Origin: Pyruvatibacter mobilis | GTDB lineage: Bacteria; Pseudomonadota; Alphaproteobacteria; CGMCC-115125 | Length of the DNA: 64,000 nucleotides | NCBI RefSeq assembly: GCF_012848855.1 | Contig: NZ_CP051630.1 | Span: 1,219,501-1,283,500 of the forward strand | Direction of reading: 5' to 3' | The notes under the pieces: generated by a model | What the model was told of the DNA's origin: nothing | Seen by the model: only the letters and a program-made list of their open reading frames with translations | Database searches by the model: none | Shown here: positions 27,499-49,113 of the stretch, one piece after another | Numbering within the stretch: position 1 is the first letter of the stretch | Layout: each line of letters opens with the position of its first letter | Position numbers and translations under genes: made by a program

Positions 27499-29616
27499 AT
27501 GAGTACTACCATGATGGCCATTCTGGCCGCTGGCGCTCTTTCGCTCGTCTATGGGGCGTGGGCGATCCGCTCCGTGCTGGCGGCGAGTCCGGGGAATGCG
27601 CGCATGCAGGAAATTGCAGGCGCCATCCAGGAAGGCGCATCTGCTTACCTCAACCGCCAGTACACCACGATCGGTCTCGTCGGCATTGTGATCTTCGCCG
27701 TTGTGTGGTGGCTGCTGGGCGCGTTGACCGCCGTCGGTTTCGCGGCCGGTGCGGTGCTGTCCGGTGCGGCCGGCTATATCGGCATGATCGTGTCGGTGCG
27801 TGCCAATGTGCGCACCACGCAGGCCTCTTCGGAGAGCCTCGCGGCCGGACTGGGCATTGCCTTCAAGTCTGGTGCGGTGACGGGCATGCTTGTGGCCGGT
27901 CTCGCCCTTCTCGGCGTGGCTGTCTATTTCTACGTGCTGACTGATGTTCTCGGCCATGACGCGACGTCGCGTCAGGTGATTGATGCGCTTGTGGCGCTCG
28001 GCTTCGGTGCGTCTCTCATTTCGATCTTCGCCCGACTTGGCGGCGGCATCTTCACCAAGGGTGCGGACGTGGGCGGTGACCTCGTGGGCAAGGTGGAAGC
28101 GGGTATCCCGGAAGATGATCCCCGCAATCCCGCTACTATCGCCGACAATGTGGGTGACAATGTCGGTGACTGTGCCGGCATGGCCGCCGACCTTTTCGAA
28201 ACCTATGCGGTGACCATTGTGGCCACCATGGTGCTGGCTTCGATCTTCTTCGTCAGCACCGCCGGTGCCACGATGATGATCTATCCGCTGGTGATCGGTG
28301 CGACCTGCATCGTGACGTCCATCATCGGCACGTTCTTTGTGCGGCTCGGCTCCGGCGGGTCGATCATGGGGGCGCTCTACAAGGGCTTCATAGCATCGGC
28401 AATCCTGTCACTCATCGCGCTGTACTTCGTCACAGACGAAGTGCTTGGGCTTGCTACGACGTACACGCAGACCAACGGCCTGAGCTTTACAGGTCAGGAT
28501 CTCTATATCTGTGGCGTGCTGGGTCTGGTCATTACCGGCCTGATCATCTGGATCACCGAGTACTACACAGGCACGAATTACCGCCCGGTGCAGTCGGTTG
28601 CCGAGGCGTCCAACTCCGGCCACGGGACCAATGTGATCCAGGGGCTGGCTGTATCGCTTGAAGCTACGGCACTGCCTGCCATCGTTATCGTTGCGGGCAT
28701 CATCGTGACCTTCAACCTGGCTGGGCTCTTCGGCATCGCCATCGCGGTGACCACAATGCTGGCGCTTGCCGGCATGGTCGTGGCGCTCGATGCGTTCGGT
28801 CCGGTCACGGATAATGCCGGTGGCATTGCCGAGATGGCTGAACTTGATGACAGCGTCCGCAAGACGACGGATGCACTGGACGCGGTTGGTAATACCACCA
28901 AAGCTGTGACCAAAGGCTACGCCATTGGGTCCGCAGGTCTTGGTGCGCTGGTGCTGTTTGCAGCGTATACGGAGGACCTCAAGTTCTTCGCTGCCAGCCC
29001 GGATGCCTATCCGTATTTCGCGGGCATTGATGTCAACTTCTCGCTGTCCAACCCCTATGTGGTGGTTGGCCTGCTGGTCGGCGGCATGCTGCCTTATCTC
29101 TTCGGTGCCATGGGCATGATGGCCGTTGGCCGGTCTGCCGGGGCGATCGTTGAGGAAGTGCGGCGGCAATTCAAAGCCAAGCCGGGCATCATGCAGGGGA
29201 CGGAGAAGCCGGATTACGGCCAGGCCGTTGACCTGCTGACCAAGGCGGCGATCCGGGAAATGATCATTCCGTCCATGCTGCCCGTGCTGTCGCCTGTGGT
29301 GTTGTTCTTCATCATCTCTGCGGTTGCCGATAAGTCAGCGGCGTTCTCGGCGCTGGGTGCCATGCTGCTTGGTGTGATCGTTACGGGGCTCTTTGTGGCC
29401 ATTTCCATGACCGCCGGTGGTGGTGCCTGGGATAACGCCAAGAAGGTGATCGAGGACGGGGCCCATGGCGGCAAGGGATCGGAAGCTCACAAGGCTGCCG
29501 TCACCGGCGACACTGTTGGTGATCCCTACAAGGACACGGCCGGCCCGGCCGTGAACCCGATGATCAAGATCACCAACATCGTGGCCCTGCTGCTGCTGGC
29601 GGTTCTTGCTCACTAG
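27499..29616 (+). CDS. hppA: Membrane-bound proton-pumping pyrophosphatase
   Basis: Couples hydrolysis of pyrophosphate to H+ transport across a membrane. 705 residues with about 16 helices. Catalytic loops are [30 protein letters not shown] (read in two halves) and [16 protein letters not shown]. The diagnostic segment [17 protein letters not shown] carries Lys and Thr where potassium-dependent enzymes have Ala and Gly, so this is the K+-independent class. The leader (27261-27498) contains a hairpin CGCCGG-GCTCAA-CCGGCG about 25 bases before the ATG, but no riboswitch core I recognise. Monocistronic, followed by a terminator. Confidence 0.97.
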
Positions 29617-35112: not shown

Positions 35113-35152
35113 GAGCCGGGTCGGACCTTGCGGGGTCAGGCCCGGCTTTTTT
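35113..35152 (+). terminator. Terminator after tRNA-Pro
   Basis: GAGCCGGG pairs with CCCGGCTT around a loop that can itself fold, followed by TTTTTT. It begins 4 bases after the CCA end and overlaps the 3' end of the convergent O-antigen-ligase-like gene. Confidence 0.88.
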
Positions 35153-36416
35153 GATGTGTGCTCCCGGCGCGGTGCCGAACTCGCGGCGCTGCAAGCATCA
35201 GACCCCAGATCATGCCCATCAGAAGGTACATGTGGCGCCAGTGGTTGCTGTCGATGATGATCGATTCAGCGAACAGGCCGATGAAGGTCGCGTAGGCCAC
35301 AAGGAAGACGCCGCGGCGTGGGCCGGTAAGAGCGTAGCGGTAGCCCTTGATGATGGTGGCACCAAGGGCCGTGAGCAGTCCTGCTATGCTGATGAAGCCG
35401 CCGGCCACAAACACGTTGAGATAGATGTTGTGAGTGTCGAGCCCGGCGATCATGCCCCAATTGTTGGGGCCGATACCGAAGGGGTGCTGCAGGGCGTGCC
35501 TCAGGGCGTTTGCATGACCGGTAAAACGGCCGCCTTCGCGCGTGTCATAGCTCTGCAGGCCCAGACGGGCTTCCAATAGGTCCCTGACTTCGGGAATGGT
35601 GGCTGCCCAACCGATGGCAAAGAACAAGGCAACACCCAGCATGACAGCAATTCCGGCGATCCGGGCGCGCTGACGCCTGGTTTCCGGCGACAGGCTTGCC
35701 AGGATAGCAAAGATCGCGGCGGACAGGAGCAGGTGCAGCCAGGCGCCTCGTGAGAAGCTGAGGAAGAGTCCCAGAGCCAGGAGCACCGTGACTGGTCCCC
35801 AGAAAAGAAGCGTGGACTTCATGCTACCGGTGCTCATGCGCCAGAAGGCATACAGCACCGGTGCCACAAGGAATGGTCCGTACACGTTGGGATCTTCAAA
35901 GAGTGCCTTGGCACGTCCCGCACCGAGAAGGATGTCACCGCCGGGGATCACGTTGAGATAGGCCCCTATGCCGAGCCCTGCCGTGCAGACAGCCGCCACG
36001 AGGTAACCTGCCCAGAGTGCGCCGAGTGCGCGGTCGGGTGAGGCTGCGATGACCGAGGCGAAGAAGATAAAGGTGAGGGTGAGGTAGGTGGATGTCTGAA
36101 GGAAAGTGATCGACAGATCCACATAGAGTGCCTGTGTGCCCCCGATCATGTAACCACAGAGGATGAGGATCATGCCCGTTGCCGGAACCGCCAGACCACG
36201 TGGAATACGGAGGCCCAGGAGGAATAGCGTTCCGGCCGTCGCCACCAGCAGAAGGTCGTAAGGCGCAGGCTCGCGCAGAACGTAGTGGGAAATTGCCGTT
36301 ACGCAGAAAAGGAGTACGGCAGCAAACCGCGTGTTCGCGATGTCGATGCCCTGGCTCCAGCCCTGCGAGGCCGGGCCGTGTCCCGGCAGTTCTGAAGCGG
36401 CAATGCCCATGCTCAT
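35136..36416 (-). CDS. O-antigen ligase / polysaccharide polymerase-like membrane protein
   Basis: A 426-residue protein with about ten to twelve hydrophobic helices, of the Wzy/WaaL family that polymerises or ligates glycan repeat units at the periplasmic face. The family loop is visible as GGRFTGHANALRHALQHPFGIGPNNWG followed by DTHNIYLNVFVAGGFISIAGLL, where the conserved His and Asn sit. It follows the glycosyltransferase gene by 3 bases on the minus strand, so the two share an mRNA with the export gene. Polymerase versus ligase cannot be told from sequence. Confidence 0.88.
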   Translation of the reverse strand: MSMGIAASELPGHGPASQGWSQGIDIANTRFAAVLLFCVTAISHYVLREPAPYDLLLVATAGTLFLLGLRIPRGLAVPATGMILILCGYMIGGTQALYVDLSITFLQTSTYLTLTFIFFASVIAASPDRALGALWAGYLVAAVCTAGLGIGAYLNVIPGGDILLGAGRAKALFEDPNVYGPFLVAPVLYAFWRMSTGSMKSTLLFWGPVTVLLALGLFLSFSRGAWLHLLLSAAIFAILASLSPETRRQRARIAGIAVMLGVALFFAIGWAATIPEVRDLLEARLGLQSYDTREGGRFTGHANALRHALQHPFGIGPNNWGMIAGLDTHNIYLNVFVAGGFISIAGLLTALGATIIKGYRYALTGPRRGVFLVAYATFIGLFAESIIIDSNHWRHMYLLMGMIWGLMLAAPRVRHRAGSTHQKSRA

Positions 36417-36419
36417 CGG

Positions 36420-37652
36420 TCAGCCTCCGCTGACAGCGGTGCGCGTCGTATCGGCATCCTCGACATGCGTCGCATAGGGGCCTTCGACCCTCTGTAGTGC
36501 CACACGATAGACTTCGTCCACGCCGTCGATCATCTGGCCGATCGAGAAGTGCCGGGCAACGCTCGTGCGGAGCTCAGCGGCAGTTCGGGCGGCTGCGGCG
36601 GCATCATCCAGTGTGTTGCTGATGGCCGCGGTTAAATCCTCGAGGTCGTGTGGCGAGACGAGGCGCGCTGACTGTGACCCGAAGATCTCAGGGATGCCGC
36701 CCACCCGCGTGGCGACCAGCGGGATACCGGCCGCCGCGGCTTCGAGAACGACATAGGGCAGGGACTCAGCGTAGGAGGGCACGACCAGCATGCGAGACTG
36801 GGCGAAGATCTCGCGCGCAGGCACCATGCCTGGGAAAGTCACCATATGGGCGATCCCCAGATCACAGGCGCGGGATTTGAAATAGTCACGGTCCGGACCA
36901 TCACCCGCGATGACAGCCTTGATGTCCCGGCCCTTGAGTTGCGCTAAAGCCCGGAGCAGGTCTTCGACGCCTTTCAGAAGCCGCAGTTCACCGACAAACG
37001 CAATGTCATAGAGCGGTTCCGCCTCCGGGAGAGGTGCAAAGTCACCGGGGCCTATGCCGTTGTGGACGATGCGCGAAAAACCGCCGATGCGCCCCACCTT
37101 GAAGGCGAACGCCTCGCGGGCAAAGAGACTTTCGAAAATGAAGGCATCGGTGCGGGAAGCGAGCCAGCGTTCAGCATTGAGGAACACGAGTCCTGCCAGG
37201 CTTCCCGGCTCGTAATGGAGCGAGCCGCCATGCGGCGTGTAAACGGCGCGCGTGTCGGCGAAGGGGCCGCGGTCGCGGTGGCGGGGCAAGGCAAGCCGGG
37301 CCAAAAGGCCGCCCTTGGCGCCATGGCCATGGACAACGTCAATGCCGTGATGGCGGACAAGGCCGCGTACCCGGCCAATGGCCGACAGGTCAGACCAGGA
37401 GGGCAGGCGGCGAATGGGCGTTTTATGAAGTCCCAGCGCCAGAAGTGGCGCGAGTGCCTCAAGACGTGCCGTGGTTGCGGGCGTTGCATCCGCTGACGAA
37501 CACAGCAGGCCGACCCTGTGGCCTGCATCCACCTGGCCCCGGACAAGGTCTTCCACATGGCGCATCAGCCCGCCGATGGGCGCGCGCAGCACATGGAGGA
37601 TGTCGAGGTCTCGGTGGTTGACGCGTAAGGTCAGTGCTTCGGTGCTGGTCAT
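36420..37652 (-). CDS. Glycosyltransferase family 4-type protein
   Basis: A 410-residue GT-B glycosyltransferase transferring sugar from a nucleotide sugar to a lipid-linked acceptor at the cytoplasmic face. N-terminal domain: ILHVLRAPIGGLMRHVEDLVRGQ and DVVHGHGAKGGLLARL. C-terminal donor domain: DIAFVGELRLLKGVEDLLRAL, VIAGDGPDRDYF and the retaining EX7E region SYAESLPYVVLEAAAAGIPLVAT. It is the only clear glycosyltransferase in the polysaccharide region. The donor sugar is unknown. Confidence 0.92.
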   Translation of the reverse strand: MTSTEALTLRVNHRDLDILHVLRAPIGGLMRHVEDLVRGQVDAGHRVGLLCSSADATPATTARLEALAPLLALGLHKTPIRRLPSWSDLSAIGRVRGLVRHHGIDVVHGHGAKGGLLARLALPRHRDRGPFADTRAVYTPHGGSLHYEPGSLAGLVFLNAERWLASRTDAFIFESLFAREAFAFKVGRIGGFSRIVHNGIGPGDFAPLPEAEPLYDIAFVGELRLLKGVEDLLRALAQLKGRDIKAVIAGDGPDRDYFKSRACDLGIAHMVTFPGMVPAREIFAQSRMLVVPSYAESLPYVVLEAAAAGIPLVATRVGGIPEIFGSQSARLVSPHDLEDLTAAISNTLDDAAAAARTAAELRTSVARHFSIGQMIDGVDEVYRVALQRVEGPYATHVEDADTTRTAVSGG

Positions 37653-37661
37653 GGCCGTGCC

Positions 37662-38366
37662 CTAGAAGAAGCGCTCGCGAATGAACACGGTGTCACCGGG
37701 AAAGACGGCTGCTGTCGGGTCTGCCTTGAATTCCTGTTTGGTGGCGTGACCGCCACGGGTGATGCGGGCGCGCGATGTGTTGGCCCGATAGGTGTAGCCG
37801 CCAGCAATGGCTACGGCTGTTTCGACTGTCATTCCGGCGACATAGGGATACTGGCCCGGAGAATTGACTTCACCCAGGATGAAGAACGGACGGAAGGTGG
37901 CGACCTGAACCGAGACGTTGGGGTTGCGGAGCAGGGTTTGTGACAGGGCCTGCTCAATGGCTGCCTTGGTCTCAAGGGCTGTCAAGCCGCGCACACCCAC
38001 AGGCGGCAACAGCGGCATGGAAATGGCGCCTGCATCATCGACGCGGAACGTACCAGAAAGACGTTCCTGCCCGAAAACGATCACCCGCAATTCGTCACCG
38101 GAGTCCAATCGGTACTGGGACACAGCAGCCGGGGCAGCGTCGCTGGCCGGGCCTGCCTGGGACGCCGGCATGGGTTGAGGGGCGGGAACGGTCGGGGCAG
38201 GACTGCCCGAGCAGGCGGCGAGGCCTGCTGAGAGAACCAGCAAGAGTGCCAGCTTTCGGTAGGCGGAAAGGATGTCCGCCAGGCTCCGCAGATACGCGCG
38301 CAAAATCGTCACCACCCGAATGAATGCCCAAGAATGGCCAAAGACTAGGCAGGGCAGGGTTACCAT
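37662..38366 (-). CDS. Polysaccharide export outer-membrane lipoprotein (Wza family)
   Basis: Periplasmic/outer-membrane exporter. 234 residues with a lipobox LSAGLAAC near residue 50, a Pro/Ala linker, then the Poly_export domain (YRLDSGDELRVIVFGQERLSGTFRVDDAGAISMPLLPPVGVRGLT) and a SLBB-like part (RPFFILGEVNSPGQYPYVAGMTVETAVAIAGGY). The lead before the signal is unusually long; a GTG at about residue 18 would give a normal signal peptide, so the start is uncertain. It begins the minus-strand operon with the glycosyltransferase and O-antigen-ligase-like genes and diverges from the Wzz/Wzc gene. Confidence 0.9.
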   Translation of the reverse strand: MVTLPCLVFGHSWAFIRVVTILRAYLRSLADILSAYRKLALLLVLSAGLAACSGSPAPTVPAPQPMPASQAGPASDAAPAAVSQYRLDSGDELRVIVFGQERLSGTFRVDDAGAISMPLLPPVGVRGLTALETKAAIEQALSQTLLRNPNVSVQVATFRPFFILGEVNSPGQYPYVAGMTVETAVAIAGGYTYRANTSRARITRGGHATKQEFKADPTAAVFPGDTVFIRERFF

Positions 38367-38557
38367 CCGCTTAGCGGACAGGTGAGCCGACTGCTCGCCA
38401 GATGAGGAAATCCGCTGAAATCAGCCCCGGTTAACATCTCGGTTACCTTAAGGCGGCTAAAAAGCGAGGTGGACGAAACTGCGAGTCTGGCCGAATGGCC
38501 GGGCCTAAAGGGGGCGCGCTTCCATCCAGCGCGCAGAAAGGGCGGTACGGCGCATCG

Positions 38558-40723
38558 ATGACCTATGCTGTATCCAGCACATATGCGCCTGACGGCAGGG
38601 CCGGATCGCCTGAGAATGGCGGTGAGCCATCCCTGGATATCTGGTCGCTTGCGGGGCGTGTCTGGGCCCGCAAGGGCTTCCTTTTCCTGTTCGTGTGCGC
38701 CGCCATGGCGCTTGCCTATGTTGCGCTGTCGACCGTTTCCCCCCGATACACCGGTGAAGTCCGTGTGCTGATTGAAGGTATCGCGCCGGATCCCACCAAT
38801 CCGCTGGGCAATCAGACCGTACGTGAAGCGGATCAGCAGAAGATCGAGAGTGAAATCCAGGTTCTGTTGTCGCGCTCTTTGGCCGATGATGTTGTTTCGA
38901 CGCTGAAGCTAGAAGAATGGGATGAGTTCGCGTCAAGCTCGACGGGGTTCTTTGGTCTGGGCGGCAGCCGGTCCAACAGCAAGAGCGATGTTATGGACGC
39001 GTATTTCTCGCGTCTGAATGTCTATCAGATCGGTACTTCGAGGGTGATCGCGATTGATTTCTGGGCGGAGCATCCCCGAAGCGCCACAATCATCGCCAAT
39101 GCCATTGCCGATATCTACATTGCCGATCAGCTGAACCAGCAGGTGACTGTAACGCGGCGGGCCAGTTCGTGGCTGGACCAGCAGGTGGAAAAGCTGCGGG
39201 CGCAGGTCAAGGCGTCGGAAGATGCGGTGTCCGAGTATCGCCGCAAGACGGGTTTGATCGAAAGCAATGGCAATACGCTGAAGTCTGCTGAACTTTCAGA
39301 ACTCAACACACAGCTCATTCTGGCTCGCGCAGCCAAGTCCGAGGCGCAAGCGCGGCTCGACAGTGCGCGGATGCTGATGGAGTCGCCCAGCGGCATTGAG
39401 ACATCATCGGAAGTGCTGGACAGCAGCCTGATCCAGCAATTGCGTGAACAGGAAGTGGCGCTGCAACGTCAGATCACGGAGCTTTCGGCAGACCTGCTAC
39501 CGCAGCACCCTGACATGATCGCTCGGCAGGCCGAGCTGGATGACCTGCGCCGCGCCATTGGTGACGAAGTCGGCAAGATCGTAAGGCGGTTGGAAAACGA
39601 AGTGCGCGTTGCCGCGGCCCGGGAAAGCTCATTGCGGCAATCCATTGCCCGCCTGAAATCTGAAGTGACACGGGAGAAACAGCGCGAGGGCGAGTTGCGG
39701 GCACTGGAGCGTGAGGCTGCCGCCAACCGGGGGCTCCTTGAATCCTTCCTGTTGAGGGCGAGCGAGACCGGGGCTCGCGATGACCGGCTTATCCAACGGC
39801 CCGAAGCGCGGATCATTTCGCGTGCCGAGACGCCGCAATCGCCGTCCTTTCCGCAGAAGGGGCCGGTGTTGATGCTGGCCTTCATGGCGTCGCTGACGAT
39901 TGGCTTGTTGCTGATCCTGGCTTTCGAAATGTTTGCACCGGTTCCGCGACCGGTCGCTGTTCGGGAAGCGGGGCGCGGTCCACGGGTTACGACTGCGCCG
40001 CCAGTCATGGCGCAGCCTGCGTATCAGCCTGCACCTCCTGCCAGCTATGCAATGCCGGCGTCACAGCAGGCCCAGATGGCTTCCGTGCACCCCATGGCAC
40101 CACCACCGATGGCGCCGCCCGGTCAGGGAGGTTTCGCGCCGGCACAGCCGTCTGCGCCGGTGACACAGATGATCGCACGTCTGCCTGCGGGGGCGTATCT
40201 GACCCCGCATGACCAATGGCTGCTTGGCGAGGGTGCCAAGACAATCCTGCAGTTCGTCCGGCAACGGCCTGCAATCAATCGGGGCGGACATCTCGTTCGG
40301 GTGAGTGCGGGACGTACGGGCGCGCGTGGACTGGCTGGCCTGGCGCGGCTGTTGTCGCAGACGGGTGCCAGTGTTCTCGTCGTCGGCTGCGCGCCTTCGC
40401 GTGCGCCAGGCTTTACAGATTTGATCTGTGGCCGCTCTTCCCTGGGGCAGGTGATGCAGGCAGAGAGCCAAAGCCGGGTTTGCTATGTGGATTGGGGCAC
40501 GATCCCGATCCATGATGACCCGGCCCTGATCCGGTCGACGCTGGCCGGGTTGTCGAACCAGGCGTCAATCATCCTTGTTGCCGATGCAGACAGCGTGGTT
40601 GCCGGGCTGTCGATGTCCATCGACCGCGCGTGTGACACGGGGCTGGTGTTGGTATCCGCCGGGGACCGGACTGCACCGTCCCTGCCGATGACGCCGAGTG
40701 CGGGTTTGGTTCAGGTCGGCTGA
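38558..40723 (+). CDS. Wzz/Wzc-like chain-length protein with degenerate kinase domain
   Basis: Inner-membrane polysaccharide co-polymerase, 721 residues. Helices near 45-65 (FLFLFVCAAMALAYVALS) and ~430-455 flank a periplasmic Wzz domain with long coiled coils (LDQQVEKLRAQVKASEDAV ...). The cytoplasmic part starts with a Pro/Ala/Met-rich linker. The last ~140 residues resemble a BY-kinase/ParA fold (VSAGRTGARGLAGLARLLSQTGASVLVVG) but lack the GxxGxGKS/T P-loop Lys, the Walker B-type Asp string and a C-terminal Tyr cluster, so kinase activity is unlikely. AAAGGG precedes the ATG at 38558. Its 3' end overlaps the convergent cupin gene by 13 bases. Confidence 0.9.
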   Translation: MTYAVSSTYAPDGRAGSPENGGEPSLDIWSLAGRVWARKGFLFLFVCAAMALAYVALSTVSPRYTGEVRVLIEGIAPDPTNPLGNQTVREADQQKIESEIQVLLSRSLADDVVSTLKLEEWDEFASSSTGFFGLGGSRSNSKSDVMDAYFSRLNVYQIGTSRVIAIDFWAEHPRSATIIANAIADIYIADQLNQQVTVTRRASSWLDQQVEKLRAQVKASEDAVSEYRRKTGLIESNGNTLKSAELSELNTQLILARAAKSEAQARLDSARMLMESPSGIETSSEVLDSSLIQQLREQEVALQRQITELSADLLPQHPDMIARQAELDDLRRAIGDEVGKIVRRLENEVRVAAARESSLRQSIARLKSEVTREKQREGELRALEREAAANRGLLESFLLRASETGARDDRLIQRPEARIISRAETPQSPSFPQKGPVLMLAFMASLTIGLLLILAFEMFAPVPRPVAVREAGRGPRVTTAPPVMAQPAYQPAPPASYAMPASQQAQMASVHPMAPPPMAPPGQGGFAPAQPSAPVTQMIARLPAGAYLTPHDQWLLGEGAKTILQFVRQRPAINRGGHLVRVSAGRTGARGLAGLARLLSQTGASVLVVGCAPSRAPGFTDLICGRSSLGQVMQAESQSRVCYVDWGTIPIHDDPALIRSTLAGLSNQASIILVADADSVVAGLSMSIDRACDTGLVLVSAGDRTAPSLPMTPSAGLVQVG

Positions 40724-41637
40724 GGGCCGGTCGTGCCTGGTGTCAGAGCCGCCCCGCGCAGGATATGACGCTTCACGAACTGACGCGCCTTCTGGTTTTT
40801 CCGAACCGGATCAACAACCATATTGACCGCCGTGTAGGCTGCTGCCTTTGCCTTGTCTGCACGCGGCTTCACGCCCGGTTTCGGCTGCGGCAACCCCATG
40901 CGGCGCATGATGTGGTTGACCGTCTGCACCTTGCGCTGGTTGAGGCTCGCCTCGTCATGAAAGGTGATGCCCATGGAAATGGAAACCTGATCGCCGTTTT
41001 CCACGTAGTGCGGGTCATTGAAGGGCACGCACAGCATGTCTCCCGGGCCGAGATCGAAGGTCTGCGCCAGGGGTGTGAAGGCCGGGCGGTATTCGATGTA
41101 GCGGCTCTTGGATGGTGAAATTTCCAGATCTTCTGCCGTGGTGCATGCCTCCGCCGGCAGGATCGTCATCCGCTTGGTGCCTGACATCTGAAGCAGGAAA
41201 TTGTGCTCCGAATCCAGATGGTATGGCGTGACGCCGCCCGGGGATGTGACAAAGCCGTAGCCCACACGGTGGGTGAAGCTGGATGGCGCGACATCTGCCA
41301 GACGGGCAATCTCATCGACTAGCTCATCGATGAGGTGACGATATGCCGGTGCGTGTTCAATGCCCTGCAGCACCATCCAGGAGCCATTGTCCCGAATGCT
41401 GCGAACCGTCTCTGCGGGGCTGAGGCCGTTTCCGGGAACAGGCAGGCCGTGGACATCTACCGGCAGGTCAGCCCGGTTGTAATCGACCTTGTCACGCGGC
41501 AAGTCGGCCGCGAGATCCGCCATGGCTTCGAGGGTGAACAGAGGACTGTCCGCAAGGTCGTGGCGGAGGGTGAAGGGGCTCATGCCAACCTTCATCTCGA
41601 TCTTTTCCGGGGCGGTGTGAATGTGCGTGCTCATCAT
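40711..41637 (-). CDS. JmjC-like cupin protein, copy 1
   Basis: A 308-residue cupin-fold protein with the iron/2-oxoglutarate facial triad pattern: His140 and Asp142 in TPYHLDSEHNFLLQ, and His210 in CVPFNDPHYVENGDQVSISMG. GTKRMTILPA lies between them, as in JmjC-type oxygenases, so hydroxylation of a protein, lipid or sugar is possible; none can be chosen from sequence. The ATG at 41637 makes a 4-base ATGA overlap with the upstream acyltransferase gene and CGGAG precedes it. A second member of this type is at 45647. Confidence 0.8.
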   Translation of the reverse strand: MMSTHIHTAPEKIEMKVGMSPFTLRHDLADSPLFTLEAMADLAADLPRDKVDYNRADLPVDVHGLPVPGNGLSPAETVRSIRDNGSWMVLQGIEHAPAYRHLIDELVDEIARLADVAPSSFTHRVGYGFVTSPGGVTPYHLDSEHNFLLQMSGTKRMTILPAEACTTAEDLEISPSKSRYIEYRPAFTPLAQTFDLGPGDMLCVPFNDPHYVENGDQVSISMGITFHDEASLNQRKVQTVNHIMRRMGLPQPKPGVKPRADKAKAAAYTAVNMVVDPVRKNQKARQFVKRHILRGAALTPGTTGPQPT

Positions 41638-42875
41638 GCACTCCGTTTGATGCGGGCGACTATGGCCCGCAGGCTGCGCTTGGCAGAAATCTCGTTTCGG
41701 TCGACAGCCGCGGCCCAATGCACCGCAGCAGACGGAACGAATTTGGACGTGGCGATGGTCACGTCCTTCATTGTCCGTCGCTCACGCCACAGATGATCGA
41801 TCATGGGGTGGTCGGGGTTTGCGCAGCTATCTGTAAATGCGATCCCAGGCGTATCGAGCAAGCGTCTGGTCAATTCCAGCTCGAGCAAGACGCCGGGTGA
41901 GTAACGGGCGTAGCTCTCGTCATGTGCAATCTTGAACGAGAACTGTCCCGTGCCGTCTGAACCGCTACCACCGAAGTTGAGAATGGTGGTTACAGGCGCG
42001 CCGTCGACGCGCATGGTAAGCGGGAAAAGCTTCCCTGCGGCGGCGGCCGCGCGGCAGGCATCGAAGAAAAACCGTGCTTCTGCAGGGCGCTGCGCAATAG
42101 CCGTGCCTGCGCGGCCTTTCCAGCTCGCCAATTCCAATTCCAGGAACTCGAGGGCGATACCTTCGACAGCGGCCTCATCGCACATGTCGGCTGTCTCGAA
42201 GGTCACTTCCCCCAGATCTGCCAGACGGCGGCTTTGGCGGGCATATTCCTTGCGCTTCTTCTTGGATACGCTCTCGGCGATGTAGCTCTCGCCATCATGA
42301 CCGCTCTTGAGCAAGGCGCGCTCGAAGCTGCGGGAGGTAGCGACTGCGAGGGAGTTCGTGCTGGTCAGGACCGACAAGGCTTCCGCCACGGGCCCGTCCG
42401 CGGCCATATGCGGCATACGGATGAGCTTTAGGCCGGCCTGGCGCAGTGACCTGACGATCGCGCGCATGCCGTCCCACTCGCAGCCTTTACGGATCAAAGG
42501 TGTTGCGAGGAAGGTGTGGATCGATCGCCACGCTGTGGCTGTCGGCAGGGGAAGGCCGCGGCAGGTGTGGCTGACCTTGACCGGCAGAAAGGCAATCAAC
42601 CGGCCTGGCTCAAGGCGGTCCTCGATCGCAAGGAGGCGGATATCGGTGTTGCCTGAGAGATGCTGCAGAGCGGGCAGGAGCAGATGATCTTCGTAGAACG
42701 GGTTTGGCTCGCTCGCATTAGCGGCTAACTCGCGCCAGGCATTGCGCTGGGGGCCGGCTGCGTCCTCATGGGTTAGCCAGCGGGTGGCAAACCGTGGATT
42801 GCCGGCAGTTTCGGCAGGCCAGGCGGCGTCCCTGAATGAGAGCGCGGCTGTCGGATGATCGGAGATCAGCGCCAT
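41634..42875 (-). CDS. CelD/BcsL-type GNAT acyltransferase, copy 1
   Basis: A 413-residue protein of the GNAT Acetyltransf_6 (CelD/BcsL, FemAB-like) group often found in polysaccharide clusters. The central stretch SYIAESVSKKKRKEYARQSRRLADLGEVTFE and ARYSPGVLLELELTRRLL are family-like. The usual GDEGYKxxW motif near the C-terminus is altered to ANPDHPMIDHLW, so it may be a diverged or specialised copy. It is coupled to the cupin gene by an ATGA overlap. Acyl donor and acceptor are unknown. Confidence 0.82.
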   Translation of the reverse strand: MALISDHPTAALSFRDAAWPAETAGNPRFATRWLTHEDAAGPQRNAWRELAANASEPNPFYEDHLLLPALQHLSGNTDIRLLAIEDRLEPGRLIAFLPVKVSHTCRGLPLPTATAWRSIHTFLATPLIRKGCEWDGMRAIVRSLRQAGLKLIRMPHMAADGPVAEALSVLTSTNSLAVATSRSFERALLKSGHDGESYIAESVSKKKRKEYARQSRRLADLGEVTFETADMCDEAAVEGIALEFLELELASWKGRAGTAIAQRPAEARFFFDACRAAAAAGKLFPLTMRVDGAPVTTILNFGGSGSDGTGQFSFKIAHDESYARYSPGVLLELELTRRLLDTPGIAFTDSCANPDHPMIDHLWRERRTMKDVTIATSKFVPSAAVHWAAAVDRNEISAKRSLRAIVARIKRSA

Positions 42876-42996
42876 TTTCTGTCCTGTTTATGCGCGGAAC
42901 CATGTGTGATGCGCCCGTATCTGTCCTGAAGCGGAACAGACGACGGATGCCTGGTTATCCGCAGCAAGGCCGGTGCCAGACCGGTGGCACGGTGGT

Positions 42997-44406
42997 TCAG
43001 CTGCTGAGGCGAAAAAGGAAAGCGTTGAGGCCGAGATAGCGCTTAACGGCAATGGCCAGCATCGCGAGATTGGCGATCAGCGATGCCAGCGTGGCAATGG
43101 CCGCTCCCATGGTGCCGAATTCAGGAATGAGGAGCGCATTGAGGCCCAGATTGAGCGCGGCCGACGTGCAAATGACCCAGGTAGCGACCATTTGCTTGCC
43201 TGTCATGGACAGGAGGTATTCCAGCGGTCCAACCGTGCAGCGGGCGACATACCCCATCACCAGGATGAGCAGCACGATGTGTCCGGCATCGAAACCCGGG
43301 CCGAAGAGTGTAAGCACATAGCCACCGACCGACAGCAGCGCCAAAGCGCCAGCGATGCTTGGCCAGAAACTCATGCGGTTGACGCCATCCAGAAATGCCT
43401 GGAGATCGGCCCGGGTGCCGGAAGCGTTGATTTCCGAGAATTTGGGGACGGCGCGCGCAGTGATGGCGAAATAGACGAAGCCGATAAGGCTGGCCGTCCG
43501 CGCTGCGGCAAAATAGATGGCGACGGATGCCGGGTCTTCGATTTGCCCCAGCATGATGACATCCGTGGATGACATCAGCAGATAGGCGCCTTCGAACACC
43601 AGCATGGGCATTGAAATGCGGAGCCAGTAGGCGGCGTGGTAGCGCGGCCGGGCGCGCGGTACCGTGCGCCGTATTCCACGAAACAGGATAGACGCCTGCA
43701 GTGCCAGACCAAGAGCGCAGGCTGATGTCATCGCGAGCATTGCGGTGACAGCATCTGGTGACAGTCCGGCCAGCACCAAGGCACCGATGCCGCCAAGCAG
43801 CATGAGGGGCCGCACGACATAGGGAATGATGTAGGCGAGTGTTACCCAGCCAAAGGCGCGGGCGGCGCTCTCCTGGATATCCGCCATGGCAAAGATCGGC
43901 AGCGCGATCAGTGCGACAGCAAAAGGCATGACGTAGTAGGCGTCGATAACGGGCTCGAGCAGGAGCAGGGTGAGCGCGGCAGCGGCGCCAACAACCAGAC
44001 CCGACCCCAGTACAATGAGGTTTGCGCGGGCCAAAAGACCCCACAACCTGCGCCAGCGCCGGCGGGCGACATATTCTGGAATGAAGCGGAGGACGGAGGT
44101 ATTCAGGCCCAGAGGAGCCATGGTCCCAAGCAGGATTACCCAGGTCCAGACATATGCATAGATGCCGAACTCGAACGCGCCCATCCAGCGGGCCAGCAGC
44201 ACCATGGACATGAAGGTGATGCCGGCGCCGGCAACCCGGATGGCCAGAACCGATGCCGCACCACGCAACACGCTTCCCAGATCGTTTGCCTCAAGGAGCA
44301 TGTTGCGGATGCGCTCACCCAATCGGGCAGGCAGCAGGCCGGTCAGCCGCAGGGCCATGGCCTGTAGGCCGTGGCCGGCTGCATGCGATGTATCCAGGCT
44401 GCTCAT
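42997..44406 (-). CDS. Polysaccharide flippase (Wzx/MATE-like)
   Basis: A 469-residue membrane protein with about 12-14 helices, of the polysaccharide biosynthesis export group that flips lipid-linked glycan units. Family features are GAASVLAIRVAGAGITFMSMVLLARWMGAFEFGIYAYVWTW in the first two helices, LNTSVLRFIPEYVARRRWRRLWG, and GFVYFAITARAVPKFSEI. The ATG overlaps the stop of the preceding acyltransferase gene by 4 bases (ATGA at 44403-44406), so both are cotranslated. It provides the translocation step for the surrounding locus. Confidence 0.92.
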   Translation of the reverse strand: MSSLDTSHAAGHGLQAMALRLTGLLPARLGERIRNMLLEANDLGSVLRGAASVLAIRVAGAGITFMSMVLLARWMGAFEFGIYAYVWTWVILLGTMAPLGLNTSVLRFIPEYVARRRWRRLWGLLARANLIVLGSGLVVGAAAALTLLLLEPVIDAYYVMPFAVALIALPIFAMADIQESAARAFGWVTLAYIIPYVVRPLMLLGGIGALVLAGLSPDAVTAMLAMTSACALGLALQASILFRGIRRTVPRARPRYHAAYWLRISMPMLVFEGAYLLMSSTDVIMLGQIEDPASVAIYFAAARTASLIGFVYFAITARAVPKFSEINASGTRADLQAFLDGVNRMSFWPSIAGALALLSVGGYVLTLFGPGFDAGHIVLLILVMGYVARCTVGPLEYLLSMTGKQMVATWVICTSAALNLGLNALLIPEFGTMGAAIATLASLIANLAMLAIAVKRYLGLNAFLFRLSS

Positions 44407-45626
44407 TGTCCGAGGGCCCGGTTCACCAGCCGCCGGGCGTCCGTTGCGAGCGTGAAGAGACGCGGTGAAGCCTTGACCTTGCGCTTAAGATAGCCACGGG
44501 CGCGCGCAATGCTGGTCAGGGCAACGCCGCCCATGGAAAGCGGGACGTGGATATCGATGAGGTCGAGACGGCTGTCGCACCATTCCTTCTTGTAGCCTTC
44601 GTCACCCACAGTTAGGTCGAAGACTTTCACGCCATTGGCGAAACACCATTTGAATAGCTCATGGAGATGCAACACGCCGGGTGAGTGTCTTGCGAGGTCA
44701 CCGTCGGTTACGCTGCCGATAACTGCGTAGAAGCGTTCGTTCTGCACATAGCCCATGTTGCCGGCCATGATTTCACCGTTCACGGTCAGGGCAGAGATAT
44801 GAAGCTGCTTGCAGATGGCCTGGTCGTCCACAAGACGGTGCAGGAATGCGTAGACACCGTCCTGGGCGAAGGGATCGCAGATGCCGCGTGCTTTCAGCCA
44901 GATTGCTTTCTGCGCCAGGATCTCATCAATCATCTGATGGCGGCGCATGGGTGTGTCGGCGACCTCGAAGCTTACAGGTCCGTGCTTCTCCAGCTGACGG
45001 CGGCGTTGCCGATCCCGTTTGCGTGTCGATTTACTTCGAGCGGCGGCATAGAAGTCTTCGAAGTTGTCACCGGTCAGAGTGATGGCGTGCGCCGCGCTTG
45101 GATGCGGTGCATGCGGCATCAATGACAGGGGCGCGCGTATACCGGCAAACTCGGAGGCGGTCTTGCTCAGGCAAAGGGCTGCTGCATCAGGAACCTGATT
45201 GGCAACGCGCATGAGGATATCGCGCATCATGGAACCGGTGCAGGTCTGGGCGAAGTCGGGCAGCGCCAATGGCGCGTGGTAGTCCGCGTCTTCTTCAGCC
45301 ATCCAGTGCAGCACCGGCATCCCCATATGTGTGCGGAGCATCAGCGGCAGGATCATGACGAGACGTGCATTGTCGTCCCGCACAAGGGCAATGCGCGGTT
45401 CAGCATTTTGAGCCTTACCTACCGTTTCCATCCAGCAGGCGAGCCAGTCATGGGTCTGGAAAATGGCCGGAGATGATTGCTGCTCCAGCAGTCGCCAGGC
45501 CGCGGCGCAGTCACTCATCCTGTGAGCGATGACCACGCGATAGCTGTCGGACGCGCCGACGACCGCATGCCGTGTGGGCAGCGTATCGGTCGAAATCAAC
45601 GTCAGGCTGGGGGTGCGCTGGGACAT
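44403..45626 (-). CDS. CelD/BcsL-type GNAT acyltransferase, copy 2
   Basis: A 407-residue FemAB-like GNAT protein. N-terminal IFQTHDWLACWMETVG is the typical opening; KSTRKRDRQRRRQLEKHGPVSFEV leads into the transferase half; FDLTVGDEGYKKEWCD near residue 350 is the conserved family motif. It sits between a cupin gene and the flippase, overlapping the latter by 4 bases. Such proteins may acylate sugar or lipid parts of exported glycans; no substrate can be named. Confidence 0.86.
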   Translation of the reverse strand: MSQRTPSLTLISTDTLPTRHAVVGASDSYRVVIAHRMSDCAAAWRLLEQQSSPAIFQTHDWLACWMETVGKAQNAEPRIALVRDDNARLVMILPLMLRTHMGMPVLHWMAEEDADYHAPLALPDFAQTCTGSMMRDILMRVANQVPDAAALCLSKTASEFAGIRAPLSLMPHAPHPSAAHAITLTGDNFEDFYAAARSKSTRKRDRQRRRQLEKHGPVSFEVADTPMRRHQMIDEILAQKAIWLKARGICDPFAQDGVYAFLHRLVDDQAICKQLHISALTVNGEIMAGNMGYVQNERFYAVIGSVTDGDLARHSPGVLHLHELFKWCFANGVKVFDLTVGDEGYKKEWCDSRLDLIDIHVPLSMGGVALTSIARARGYLKRKVKASPRLFTLATDARRLVNRALGQ

Positions 45627-45646
45627 GGTGCTCGTGTGTCCTGCCG

Positions 45647-46609
45647 TCAGGCACCCTGCGGTGCGCCAAGCTCCACATAGCCAAGCTCTTCACGCGGATC
45701 GACCTGGAAGCTGGTCTGCAGCACGCGCTCGCGGCTCTTGAGCAAGCCGGAATACTTGATGCCGGCGGCAAAAGCGCATTTGGCCATCGCGGCAACACCG
45801 GTGGTGTTCCGGCTCGTGGGGGTCACGCCCAGAAGGCGGCGCATGGCACCATTGGCGAATACAACGCCGTAGAAGCGCTGCGCTTCAGGCGTGTAATAGG
45901 ACGTGGTGATGGACACATTGAGGCCGTCGAGATTGTCCACGCGATGTGGTGCCTGCTGTTTCCAGGCCACGGCGTCACCGGCTTCGAGATCAAACACCTT
46001 GGCGTGCTGATCGAAGGAGGGGCTGTAAGGAACTTCCTCTTCCTGTTCGCGCAGCACAACACGTTCCCGATTTTCGGGGGACAGGAATTCATCCGTGTCC
46101 GGATACAGCCAGAGGCGCTTGCGTCCCCGGATGTGCCACAGGGCAATCGGCGGGATGTCGCAGTGATAGAGCACGCTCATATCGGGGCTGGAAATGAGGA
46201 TGCCGGTGTTATGGCGGAACGTGCGGAGGCCGGGATTGAGGTTTGCAATGTCGCCAAAGGCGCGCTGTACCAGCGCGGCATGGCGGGGCGCTGCATCTTC
46301 AATGTGCTGAAGATTAAGCCAGAGGTGGCCGTGCTGGATGGCCTCAAGGACCTGTTCACCCGTGAGACCGCTTATGGACCCATAGCGCCACAGATAGCTG
46401 CCATCCGGCTGCTGCGTGGTGGTGTAGACCGTCATCAGGTGACCGGGGTAGGTCTCGATCAGTTCGGCGAGGGCGTCATCTTCAAACAGGCCGCTTTCGG
46501 CAAAACGGTGCTTGAACCGCAGCGAGGTGAGCGAGAATTTCTCAGCATCTTCCTTGCTGATGTCGATAATCGACGACTTTGCGTCCGGTGACATCACATC
46601 GGGGGACAT
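45647..46609 (-). CDS. JmjC-like cupin protein, copy 2
   Basis: A 320-residue cupin-like protein with the same triad layout as copy 1: His149 and Asp151 in SVLYHCDIPPIALWHI, and His222 in QQAPHRVDNLDGLNVSI, with RGRKRLWLYPDTDEFL between. The N-terminal ~60 residues (SLTSLRFKHRFAESGLFEDDALAELIETYP) parallel copy 1's PFTLRHDLADSPLFTLEAMADL, showing common origin despite low overall identity. It lies between two acyltransferase genes, 20 and 72 bases away, in one minus-strand run. Confidence 0.8.
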   Translation of the reverse strand: MSPDVMSPDAKSSIIDISKEDAEKFSLTSLRFKHRFAESGLFEDDALAELIETYPGHLMTVYTTTQQPDGSYLWRYGSISGLTGEQVLEAIQHGHLWLNLQHIEDAAPRHAALVQRAFGDIANLNPGLRTFRHNTGILISSPDMSVLYHCDIPPIALWHIRGRKRLWLYPDTDEFLSPENRERVVLREQEEEVPYSPSFDQHAKVFDLEAGDAVAWKQQAPHRVDNLDGLNVSITTSYYTPEAQRFYGVVFANGAMRRLLGVTPTSRNTTGVAAMAKCAFAAGIKYSGLLKSRERVLQTSFQVDPREELGYVELGAPQGA

Positions 46610-46681
46610 GGGCGCCTGCTCCGTCTTTCTGTCTTGCCGCTCCGTTCTGGAGGGTTCGACAGGACAGTCGCATGCGGAGGG

Positions 46682-47902
46682 TTACCAAGCCGTTTGTGTA
46701 CGGAAGCGGTAGACCAGCTTTCGCAGGTTTTTCGCGGCTTTCCAGAGGCGCTCATCTTGTTTGATGGCGCGTTTTGCCCGTCGGCCGACCGACAGCGCGA
46801 AGGCTGTGATGCGACCCTTCATGGTTAAGCCGAAGTGAATGTCGAACAGCGGCATAACCGTGTCGCACCACTCATCCTTGTAGCCTTCATCGCCCGCCGT
46901 GAAGTCGAAGGTGCTGAGGCCGTTGTCGATCGACCATTCGATGAGGTCCGTCAGATGGAGCTGACCGGGCGAGAATGCGCGCATGTCGCCATCGGCCATG
47001 GTGGAGAGGACGTAGTAATAGCGTCCATTCCACACGAGCCCCCAATTGGCGGCGGTGATGGTATCGCCGGCCACGTAGGCGGACAGCTGGCAAATGCCCG
47101 GATGGCTCTCGGCCATGCTGCGATAGAAGGCGCGAACGTCACCATCGGCGAACACATCGCCGACGCCCATTTCCGCCAGGCGCGAACGCTTCTGATCAAT
47201 GAGGGCTGTGATGATGCGGCCGCGTTGGGTGGTACTGGCCGCGATCTCCATCCGGGTTTCACCATGGGCAGTAGCGAGGCGGCGGGCCTTCTGGCGCAAT
47301 TTCTTTCGGGACGATGCGCCACGGCGCGCCTTGAAGAAGGTGTCGAAATCGGTGCCCAGCGACATGCTGTGCGAGCCCATGGGCGACAGGTGATTGGGAT
47401 AGCAGAGCAGGGGATGTGAGCCGTCTTCCAGTGTGGCCGGCATCTCCAGCAACTGTACGACGTCGATGTTGGGTGCCATGCGGCAGGCAGCTTCAAGAAG
47501 CGATCGGGTGACCCTGGGGGTCATGCGTGCCAGGAAGGTCTTGTCCAGCAAGGGGCCCTTGTAGTCAGCGTGCTCGGCGCCGAGCCAGACGAGCTTGCGG
47601 ATGTGGCCGCGGGTCTCGATGCCCATGGGGAGCAGGGCGACAAGGCCTCCGCCGCGACGGCTTGCCATAACGATGAAGGGCTCGATGGCGCGTGCCGCAC
47701 CGATATGGGTGTGCCATTGCGAGACCCAGGCCCAGCTCTGAAAGACGTGGCCTGCTGCGCGGTGCTCCAGATTGACCCAGTCAGCGCGCAGACCGTCTAT
47801 ATCCGCGCTGGTGCTCAGGACGAGCTCGGTCGCGTCCTCCAGTGGGGTTTTTTCTTCAAAATCAACGGGTTCGGCGGAAATTGGTGCCGCGGCGATACTC
47901 AT
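46682..47902 (-). CDS. CelD/BcsL-type GNAT acyltransferase, copy 3
   Basis: A 406-residue FemAB-like GNAT protein, first gene of the minus-strand acyltransferase/cupin run. VFQSWAWVSQWHTHIG, SRKKLRQKARRLATAHGETRMEI and the motif FDFTAGDEGYKDEWCD are family hallmarks; the last two align well with copy 2. The ATG at 47902 is preferred over one 26 codons upstream because the extra lead is Cys/Trp-rich and unlike the family. Divergent from the deacetylase gene, so a shared control region lies at 47903-48054. Confidence 0.86.
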   Translation of the reverse strand: MSIAAAPISAEPVDFEEKTPLEDATELVLSTSADIDGLRADWVNLEHRAAGHVFQSWAWVSQWHTHIGAARAIEPFIVMASRRGGGLVALLPMGIETRGHIRKLVWLGAEHADYKGPLLDKTFLARMTPRVTRSLLEAACRMAPNIDVVQLLEMPATLEDGSHPLLCYPNHLSPMGSHSMSLGTDFDTFFKARRGASSRKKLRQKARRLATAHGETRMEIAASTTQRGRIITALIDQKRSRLAEMGVGDVFADGDVRAFYRSMAESHPGICQLSAYVAGDTITAANWGLVWNGRYYYVLSTMADGDMRAFSPGQLHLTDLIEWSIDNGLSTFDFTAGDEGYKDEWCDTVMPLFDIHFGLTMKGRITAFALSVGRRAKRAIKQDERLWKAAKNLRKLVYRFRTQTAW

Positions 47903-48054
47903 GTGCGGTGCTTTCAAGGCAATAAACTCTGCCCAATATCCGCAAGGGCAGTGCCAGAAAGGGCAGAATCCCGCCGTCAATCGGTTGGCAATTGTTCGGG
48001 ACTACTCTCCGGGAGCTTCAGGCTCCCCAATCACCTACCGGAGATCCCGCCTCC

Positions 48055-49113
48055 ATGCGCCGTGTCGGACGTGACGTCATCAAGCTTGGCCTTTCAACCA
48101 TGCGCAGCACCGGCATGCACAGGATGCTGGGGGACAGCTGGCGGGGGCTGGGGGCCATTTTCATGCTGCACCGGGTTGTCGAGGAGGCGGCGCCGGACAC
48201 GGCATTTGCACCCAACAGGATCCTCGAAGTGACGCCTGATTTTCTGGATGCGGTGATTGGCCGTGTCAGGGGTCTCGGCTACGAGATCGTCTCGCTGGAC
48301 GACATGGTGAGCCGGCTGCGTGGCGGAGGGCCCGGTCCTTTCGCGGCCTTTACGTTCGACGATGGCTATCGCGATAACTTCGAACTCGCTTTGCCGATCT
48401 TCGAGAAGCATGACGCGCCTTTTGCAGTCTATGTGGCGTCTGACCTGCCGGATGGGTTGGCTGACCTGTGGTGGATGACCCTGGAAGCATCGATCCGGGC
48501 CGTGGACCATCTGGAGATGGAGATCGGTGGCGAGGTCATCCATCACCGGGCGGAGACCAACAAAGACAAGCGCGGGGCCTGGGAGAGCGTCTACTGGCGT
48601 TTGCGGGATCTTCCCGAGGATGAGATGCGCCATGCCGTCAGCGTGCTTGCAGAGCAGGCGGGCATTGATGGCCGGGCCATTGCCAATGCACATGCGATGT
48701 CTTGGGATCAGGTGCGGGCGCTGCATTCACATCCGCTTTGCACCATCGGCGCACACACCGCGTCCCACTATGCCCTCGCCAAGCTGCCGAAAGAACGGGC
48801 GCGGGAGGACATGCTGGCAGGCACTGCGCGCCTGGAGACGGAACTCGGCGACAAGCCAAAGCACTTTGCCTATCCCTATGGTGATGAAGGCTCTGCGTCA
48901 CAGCGCGAGTTTGACCTGGCCACGAGCCAGCGCTTTGCGTCAGCTGTGACGACCCGCAAGGGACTGCTGTTCGCCGAGCATGGGAATCATCTGCGTGCGC
49001 TGCCGCGCCTGTCTCTCAATGGTGATTATCAGGATGTGGATCTGGTGGAGGTTCTTCTCGGCGGTGCGCCGTTTGCCCTGTGGAACCGCTTCAAACGCGT
49101 GAATGTGGCCTGA
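48055..49113 (+). CDS. Polysaccharide deacetylase (NodB-homology, CE4)
   Basis: A 352-residue enzyme of the carbohydrate esterase 4 family removing N- or O-acetyl groups from glycans. The metal-binding first motif is FAAFTFDDGYRDNFELALP, the second is TIGAHTASHYALAKL with its two His, and AYPYGDEGSASQREFDLA is the third. No signal peptide is evident, so it may act on lipid-linked intermediates in the cytoplasm. CGGAG upstream supports the ATG at 48055. It is the only plus-strand gene of this end of the locus. Confidence 0.9.
   Translation: MRRVGRDVIKLGLSTMRSTGMHRMLGDSWRGLGAIFMLHRVVEEAAPDTAFAPNRILEVTPDFLDAVIGRVRGLGYEIVSLDDMVSRLRGGGPGPFAAFTFDDGYRDNFELALPIFEKHDAPFAVYVASDLPDGLADLWWMTLEASIRAVDHLEMEIGGEVIHHRAETNKDKRGAWESVYWRLRDLPEDEMRHAVSVLAEQAGIDGRAIANAHAMSWDQVRALHSHPLCTIGAHTASHYALAKLPKERAREDMLAGTARLETELGDKPKHFAYPYGDEGSASQREFDLATSQRFASAVTTRKGLLFAEHGNHLRALPRLSLNGDYQDVDLVEVLLGGAPFALWNRFKRVNVA

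Follow-up and report, generated by a model that had tools for sequence, protein, structure and literature searches.

Why should a bacterial polysaccharide locus carry acyltransferase genes that twice stand directly ahead of a cupin gene? The question is raised by a 64,000-nucleotide stretch of the 3.33-Mb chromosome of Pyruvatibacter mobilis (NCBI RefSeq assembly GCF_012848855.1, contig NZ_CP051630.1, positions 1,219,501 to 1,283,500), referred to here as the window, in which the polysaccharide locus extends over about 35136-49113. An earlier note on this DNA had described three FemAB/BcsL-like acyltransferases (here GNAT1 to GNAT3) and two cupins (cupinA and cupinB) and had proposed that the acyltransferase preceding each cupin works together with it. 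Our reading, to which we give a probability of roughly 0.55, is that the locus makes a Wzx/Wzy-dependent exopolysaccharide (EPS) that would be tailored, as a lipid-linked repeat unit and before export, by two separate acylate-and-hydroxylate cassettes. Cassette A would consist of GNAT3 and cupinA, and cassette B of cupinB with GNAT1 and GNAT2. The genes concerned run on the minus strand from 47980 down to 40711 in the order GNAT1-cupinB-GNAT2-Wzx-GNAT3-cupinA:

46682-47980, minus strand: GNAT1, PF13480 acyltransferase (FemAB/HfsK-like), upstream neighbour of cupinB; 99 bits against a Pfam cut-off of 22
45647-46609, minus strand: cupinB, predicted JmjC-type Fe(II)/2-oxoglutarate hydroxylase; AlphaFold model (pLDDT 89.7), fold match and residue conservation
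44403-45626, minus strand: GNAT2, PF13480 acyltransferase, paralogue of GNAT1, downstream neighbour of cupinB; 105.8 bits against 22
42997-44406, minus strand: Wzx-type flippase; PF01943, 51.4 bits, cut-off 28.2
41634-42875, minus strand: GNAT3, PF13480 acyltransferase of a BspF-like branch, partner of cupinA; 67.1 bits against 22
40711-41637, minus strand: cupinA, predicted JmjC-type Fe(II)/2-oxoglutarate hydroxylase; JmjC_2, 33.7 bits, cut-off 22, Cupin_8 also passed

The open reading frames lie where the earlier note had placed them, all three acyltransferases pass PF13480, and an acyltransferase does precede each cupin (GNAT1 before cupinB, GNAT3 before cupinA). The gaps between the six genes, from GNAT1 to cupinA, are 72, 20, -4, 121 and -4 bases. 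Both ATGA overlaps of the note could be read directly, at 44403-44406 (GNAT2/Wzx junction) and 41634-41637 (GNAT3/cupinA junction); just the second of them joins an acyltransferase to a cupin. The start of cupinA called by the tool, a TTG at 41718, is too early, and the ATG at 41637 agrees with the overlap and with the relatives. A frame antisense to cupinB (45572-46591, plus strand), longer than cupinB itself, looks spurious.

Pairs of this kind were found to recur far from Pyruvatibacter. When named genomes were searched with the cupinA alignment and the best 80 of 400 relatives taken, 79 of the 80 loci had a PF13480 GNAT of the same branch as GNAT3 immediately upstream of cupinA and in the same orientation, and the remaining locus (L093; L and G numbers are our own for loci and genomes) begins at a contig end. 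The distance filter had flagged 76 of the 80, and three more (L108, L120 and L121, with over-long cupin starts) were added by reading the output. The pairs occur in Sphingomonadales (cupinA carriers include Sphingobium, Sphingopyxis, Erythrobacter and Novosphingobium), Parvibaculum, Parvularculales (Aquisalinus, Parvularcula), Planctomycetota (Pirellulaceae, Planctomicrobium) and a metagenome-assembled genome of Burkholderiales. Among 385 genomes sampled from the class, a profile of both cupins matched 16, representing 10 of 276 genera. Two draws yielded 36 cupinB loci, of which 32 have a GNAT next to the cupin on the same strand, one has it on the opposite strand and three have none; nine of the ten cupinA-type loci in the same batch had a GNAT. 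The neighbourhood comparison that the note had suggested therefore finds the pairs conserved outside the genus, and recurrence in the named loci, the sphingomonad genomes and the cupinB draws excludes chance clustering.

Further evidence comes from what happens when one partner is missing. We compared the lists of genomes matching cupinA and GNAT3 among 298 genomes of one sphingomonad family, that of G147. CupinA was matched in 145 and GNAT3 in 147; both occurred in 142, the cupin alone in three (G245, G409 and G666) and a GNAT3-like protein alone in five. In those five (G533, G572, G574, G614 and G649) the matches were all weaker than E 1e-87, and every one of the 139 genomes with a GNAT3 match of E 1e-100 or better also matched cupinA. 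Some of the 142 pairs fall on different contigs (G473, G636, G660), and adjacency is counted from the sets of 80 and 36 loci. In the three cupin-only genomes the cupin gene sits behind hppA, at the site where related genomes carry hppA-GNAT3-cupinA, and no GNAT3 was found near it by tblastn. All three of these cupins are dead: in G245 the HxD residues are replaced by R and A and the lysine by Q, in G666 the first histidine is replaced by F and the lysine by M, and in G409 the gene has a frameshift and an in-frame stop. By comparison, cupinA-type proteins with a GNAT directly upstream kept the triad in 85 of 85 cases. Three of three broken against none of 85 has a probability of 9e-6 if the cases are independent, which G245 and G666 are not. 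Two of the dead cupins stand on long branches in the tree (1.08 and 0.94, compared with 0.32 for an intact sister), and cupin decay after GNAT3 loss is counted as at least two events. This co-loss supports the part of the note's proposal by which GNAT and cupin act together, and their functional coupling is well supported. Because the cupin is dead in all three genomes where GNAT3 is gone, the simplest explanation is that it needs the product of GNAT3 or the GNAT3 protein. The sphingomonad genomes thus amount to a natural deletion experiment.

What the cupins do was judged from models and alignments, the pocket being assessed through alignments and fold matches. Both models (that of cupinA with a pLDDT of 76.6) were matched by Foldseek to JmjC hydroxylases at a probability of 1.00. 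The closest solved fold was YcfD, with a VIA Z of 17.3 over 196 aligned residues at 3.1 Å for cupinA and, for cupinB, 17.2 over 187 residues with a root-mean-square deviation of 3.0 (4liv). NO66, JMJD5 and TYW5 followed for both cupins, FIH appeared in the cupinB list, and MINA53 is also among the nearest solved folds. The sequence of cupinB scores under the Cupin_8 cut-off (23.6 vs 27.4), and a single-sequence search for a solved relative of cupinB found none; its predicted model shows the fold. The HxD...H triad that the note had read in both cupins is present in each. CupinA residues T137, H140, D142, N146 and K155 are kept in 89 of 90 homologues and H210 in 90 of 90, while H149, D151, K164 and H222 of cupinB are invariant in 12 of 12 cupinB-type sequences; later draws added 46 loci, cupinA-type and cupinB-type together, and all 46 keep the metal triad and the 2-oxoglutarate-binding lysine. 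A sequence match between cupinA and FIH aligns the six cupinA residues with pocket positions that we take to be T196, H199, D201, N205, K214 and H279 of FIH, in number as in role, so that cupinA, like FIH, presumably retains the equivalents of T196 and N205. Thus the structure check that the note had proposed turned up a JmjC fold in the models and a credible metal and 2-oxoglutarate pocket in the alignment, and both cupins are predicted to be JmjC Fe(II)/2-oxoglutarate hydroxylases. They share the fold, the triad and the lysine with YcfD, NO66, FIH, JMJD5 and TYW5, and differ from these in being genetically paired with GNATs and in a sequence identity of just about 8-20%.

The acyltransferases fall into two lineages, GNAT3 in one and GNAT1 and GNAT2 in the other. 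In a GNAT tree of 55 rows, which left out two PF13480 loci of the P. mobilis genome itself (L004 and L007, no match to profiles A2 and A6), all 23 partners of cupinA fall within one branch of 27 rows (support 98/96), together with four rows that do not adjoin a cupin and none of the ten partners of cupinB. The cupin tree likewise separates cupinA-type from cupinB-type proteins (100/100). Because the GNATs form two lineages, two cassettes fit better than three independent acyltransferases. No solved chain, FemX included, was found as a relative of the GNATs at E up to 1 with sequence profiles A6 and A7. GNAT3 matches the NCBIfam model NF047385 (BspF) with E 5.5e-47, yet at 160 bits against a cut-off of 775, and was rejected as BspF itself in favour of a related family. 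GNAT3 and two environmental relatives match this model at E 2e-42 to 5e-47, far under its cut-off. This suggests, on sequence similarity, that the effector BspF may be one member of a wide family of chromosomal GNATs, many of them associated with surface polymers.

The remaining genes of the polysaccharide locus are these:

47992-49113, plus strand: CE4 polysaccharide deacetylase, divergent from GNAT1; PF01522, 65.8 bits, cut-off 23.1, with TFDDG and HTASH motifs
38495-40723, plus strand: Wzz/Wzc-type chain-length/export protein, convergent with cupinA; PF02706, 32.2 bits, cut-off 25.5; TIGR01005 at E 1.1e-65, below its cut-off
37662-38366, minus strand: Wza-type polysaccharide export protein; PF02563, 74.8 bits, cut-off 28
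36420-37652, minus strand: GT4 glycosyltransferase; PF00534, 107.7 bits, cut-off 26.4
35136-36416, minus strand: Wzy/O-antigen-ligase-type polymerase; PF04932, 52.6 bits, cut-off 31.7

Wzx, Wzy, Wza and Wzz/Wzc are thus all above their Pfam cut-offs (PF01943, PF04932, PF02563 and PF02706) within one locus. The entire locus was found in the same order in two of the three other species of the genus; the third is represented by a 6.3-kb contig with CE4, GNAT1 and cupinB that breaks off inside GNAT2. The six proteins from GNAT1 to cupinA are 47-68% identical to those of the window, and this conservation, together with the recurrence of the pairs far outside it, places the layout beyond chance. A Parvibaculum-like version of the locus contains CE4, GNAT1, Wzx, GNAT3, cupinA, Wzz, Wza, GT4 and Wzy. 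GNAT1 has same-place orthologues across the genus and a related gene in the Parvibaculum loci, and neither cupinB nor GNAT2 was seen in the Parvibaculum-like version, so the genus of the window has an extra cassette between GNAT1 and Wzx.

The broader surroundings of cassette A were clustered for 78 of the 80 named loci (L108 and L120 had no cupin open reading frame after gene calling and were dropped). Polysaccharide genes flank the cassette in 9 of the 78, all Parvibaculum-like, and a cluster of asparagine-synthase-type genes lies nearby in 7. In one Sphingopyxis locus (L109) the asparagine-synthase-type protein passes TIGR03108 (XrtA/PEP-CTERM amidotransferase), GNAT3-cupinA directly follows, and a protein further upstream passes TIGR03019 (FemAB). 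A 109-kb plasmid of Mariluticola halotolerans (NZ_CP090961.1, L142:706-12566) carries PHPT, a glycosyltransferase, cupinB, GNAT and Wzx in this order, with GumC; its cupinB, annotated as a hypothetical protein, lies between EPS genes, and cassette B may therefore travel with EPS genes.

A mechanism can be proposed by combining two known systems. In Caulobacter, HfsK is described as a tandem GNAT, nearest to FemX among solved proteins, and it has been suggested to acylate amines that the deacetylase HfsH lays bare in the holdfast (PMC5362036). A CE4 enzyme and a tandem GNAT thus serve one adhesive polysaccharide there, and the window has a comparable set; the Discussion of that paper mentions no JmjC hydroxylase. 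The JmjC enzyme KDM3A is reported to oxidise acetyl-lysine to hydroxyacetyl-lysine (PMC13149330). As proposed for the cupins, it hydroxylates an acyl group of the type that GNATs install; unlike them, it is described as a eukaryotic enzyme with a histone substrate and no co-conserved gene pair. Putting the HfsK proposal and the KDM3A chemistry together, a GNAT of the FemAB/HfsK kind would act in the cytoplasm and equip the lipid-linked repeat unit with an acyl or aminoacyl group, probably on an amine exposed by the CE4 deacetylase. Its JmjC partner would use O2, Fe(II) and 2-oxoglutarate to hydroxylate that group while the unit still awaits flipping by Wzx. Here we infer the acceptor, the acyl donor, the cellular place, the order of reactions and the role of CE4, a part for which is made plausible by the HfsH/HfsK analogy alone. 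A cupin dependent on the GNAT or on what the GNAT makes would account for the co-loss, which is compatible with hydroxylation either before or after transfer. A wider claim, that a widespread module of a tandem GNAT and a dedicated JmjC enzyme puts hydroxyacyl or hydroxy-aminoacyl groups on surface polysaccharides, with separate A and B lineages of both enzymes and both versions stacked in one locus in this genus, is more tentative, and we rate it at slightly less than an even chance.

Several observations weigh against this reading. G245 and G666 belong to one genus and possibly share a single loss (branch support 94/21). Three cupinA-type proteins of G278 and one on a Paraburkholderia plasmid keep company with no GNAT, and the G278 proteins retain the triad; together the four make up a branch of their own, moderately supported (94/77). 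Three cupinB loci (L181, L182 and L195) and one of the cupinA type (L198) have no GNAT inside about 1.5 kb. The partnering is not strictly fixed, since in G012 and G145 cupinB and Wzx are followed by a GNAT related to the GNAT3 branch. Many cupinA-GNAT3 pairs stand outside polysaccharide loci: in 28 of the 78 clustered loci hppA, not itself a polysaccharide gene, lies close upstream of the pair, and DUF2807 genes are the neighbours of the pairs in L054 and L055. Finally, characterised JmjC enzymes mostly have proteins or tRNA as substrates, and the solved structures that the cupins match best are those of ribosomal oxygenases.

A rival reading is that the pair makes a small molecule or lipid, for example a hydroxylated N-acyl or aminoacyl compound, with polysaccharide loci being just one location. 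Ornithine-lipid modification follows a similar acyltransferase and hydroxylase logic, cupinA-GNAT3 often has hppA ahead of it or a gene for an acyl-CoA thioesterase next to it, and of the three cupinA relatives in G278 two adjoin nonribosomal peptide synthetase/polyketide synthase (NRPS/PKS) genes. However, a full Wzx/Wzy locus with the pair in place is kept across the genus and in Parvibaculum-like bacteria, and cupinB-GNAT stands between EPS genes on the Mariluticola plasmid. HfsK-type enzymes are also able to act on EPS though encoded outside the main operon. We consider such a product unlikely.

Even with a polysaccharide product, GNAT and JmjC might work on different positions of one repeat unit, the JmjC enzyme hydroxylating a carbon of a sugar or a pre-existing amino acid. 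Co-occurrence and co-location would suit any shared product, but the dependence looks one-to-one, with the cupin dead in all three genomes that lack GNAT3, which is most simply explained by a cupin in need of the GNAT3 product or the GNAT3 protein; separate positions seem to us a still less likely arrangement. The nearest solved folds (YcfD, NO66, MINA53, JMJD5 and FIH) could also mean that the cupins are protein hydroxylases of the ribosomal-oxygenase kind, or metal-binding regulators, that stand beside acyltransferases incidentally. Conservation already weighs against this, as do the adjacency in 79 of 80 and 32 of 36 loci, the co-loss and the lineage-matched partners, and we regard it as improbable. 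Two acylate-and-hydroxylate cassettes acting on the repeat unit remain our preferred reading.

Each enzyme family involved is already known. JmjC-type oxygenases, counted among modifying enzymes, and ligases of the Fem type are mentioned, in settings of another kind, by a 2010 paper on peptide-forming operons (PMC2922099). In the open-licence literature we found no description of a GNAT/FemAB-JmjC pair or of a JmjC enzyme in EPS tailoring; neither the conserved pair module nor such a role is met there. If the wider claim on a widespread module is true, these would be, as far as that literature shows, the first JmjC enzymes assigned to EPS tailoring, and the chemistry of the polymer would depend on oxygen and iron supply. 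The pairing would also offer a function-predicting partner for many bacterial JmjC proteins, hypothetical in the records examined, and likewise for HfsK/FemAB-like GNATs, whose exact role is left unclear in the account of the holdfast work (PMC5362036).

Two known types of locus were considered for the window and rejected. A Caulobacter-type holdfast locus is not indicated by the NCBIfam equivalog models, the Wzx protein scoring 23.7 bits against a cut-off of 700 for HfsF and the CE4 enzyme 28.2 against 400 for HfsH. When ten window proteins and the CE4 enzyme were scanned for membership in the XrtA/PEP-CTERM group, the XrtA-related models stayed below cut-off; one related pair, that of Sphingopyxis L109, does lie in a locus of this type. 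XrtA/PEP-CTERM EPS loci (TIGR03019) do have a PF13480 GNAT within an EPS locus, as in the window, the TIGR03019 FemAB-type protein being presumably linked to the PF13480 family; to our knowledge, a JmjC partner is absent from the XrtA family definitions.

Further observations concern relatives of the two proteins elsewhere. In G278 (L058, 9032-10909 and 11075-19998), two GNAT-less cupinA-like JmjC genes lie just ahead of NRPS/PKS genes that encode condensation, AMP-binding, ketosynthase and aminotransferase domains, and the third copy is on another contig (L059). The GNAT-less cupinA-like JmjC gene on the plasmid of Paraburkholderia largidicola (L143:9920-20738) is near multicopper-oxidase-like genes and a gene for a large cadherin-like protein; genes for a sulfatase and its kind of maturase, a sulfatase maturase, lie upstream. 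GNAT3-like genes occur as tandem duplicates at L152, L153, L159 and L160 in G133 and G316, two genomes in which the class-wide cupin search found no cupin.

Within the P. mobilis genome, the locus is preceded by genes for a fatty-acid synthesis protein, a 3-oxoacyl-ACP synthase III, an HU/IHF-type DNA-binding protein and a MerR regulator. The sole initiating phosphoglycosyltransferase of the genome (PF02397) is encoded at position 278620, far from the locus and near a mannose-1-phosphate guanylyltransferase gene. An hppA gene (membrane H+-pyrophosphatase, by Pfam) is present at 27499-29616 of the window, about 11 kb from the GNAT3-cupinA cassette.

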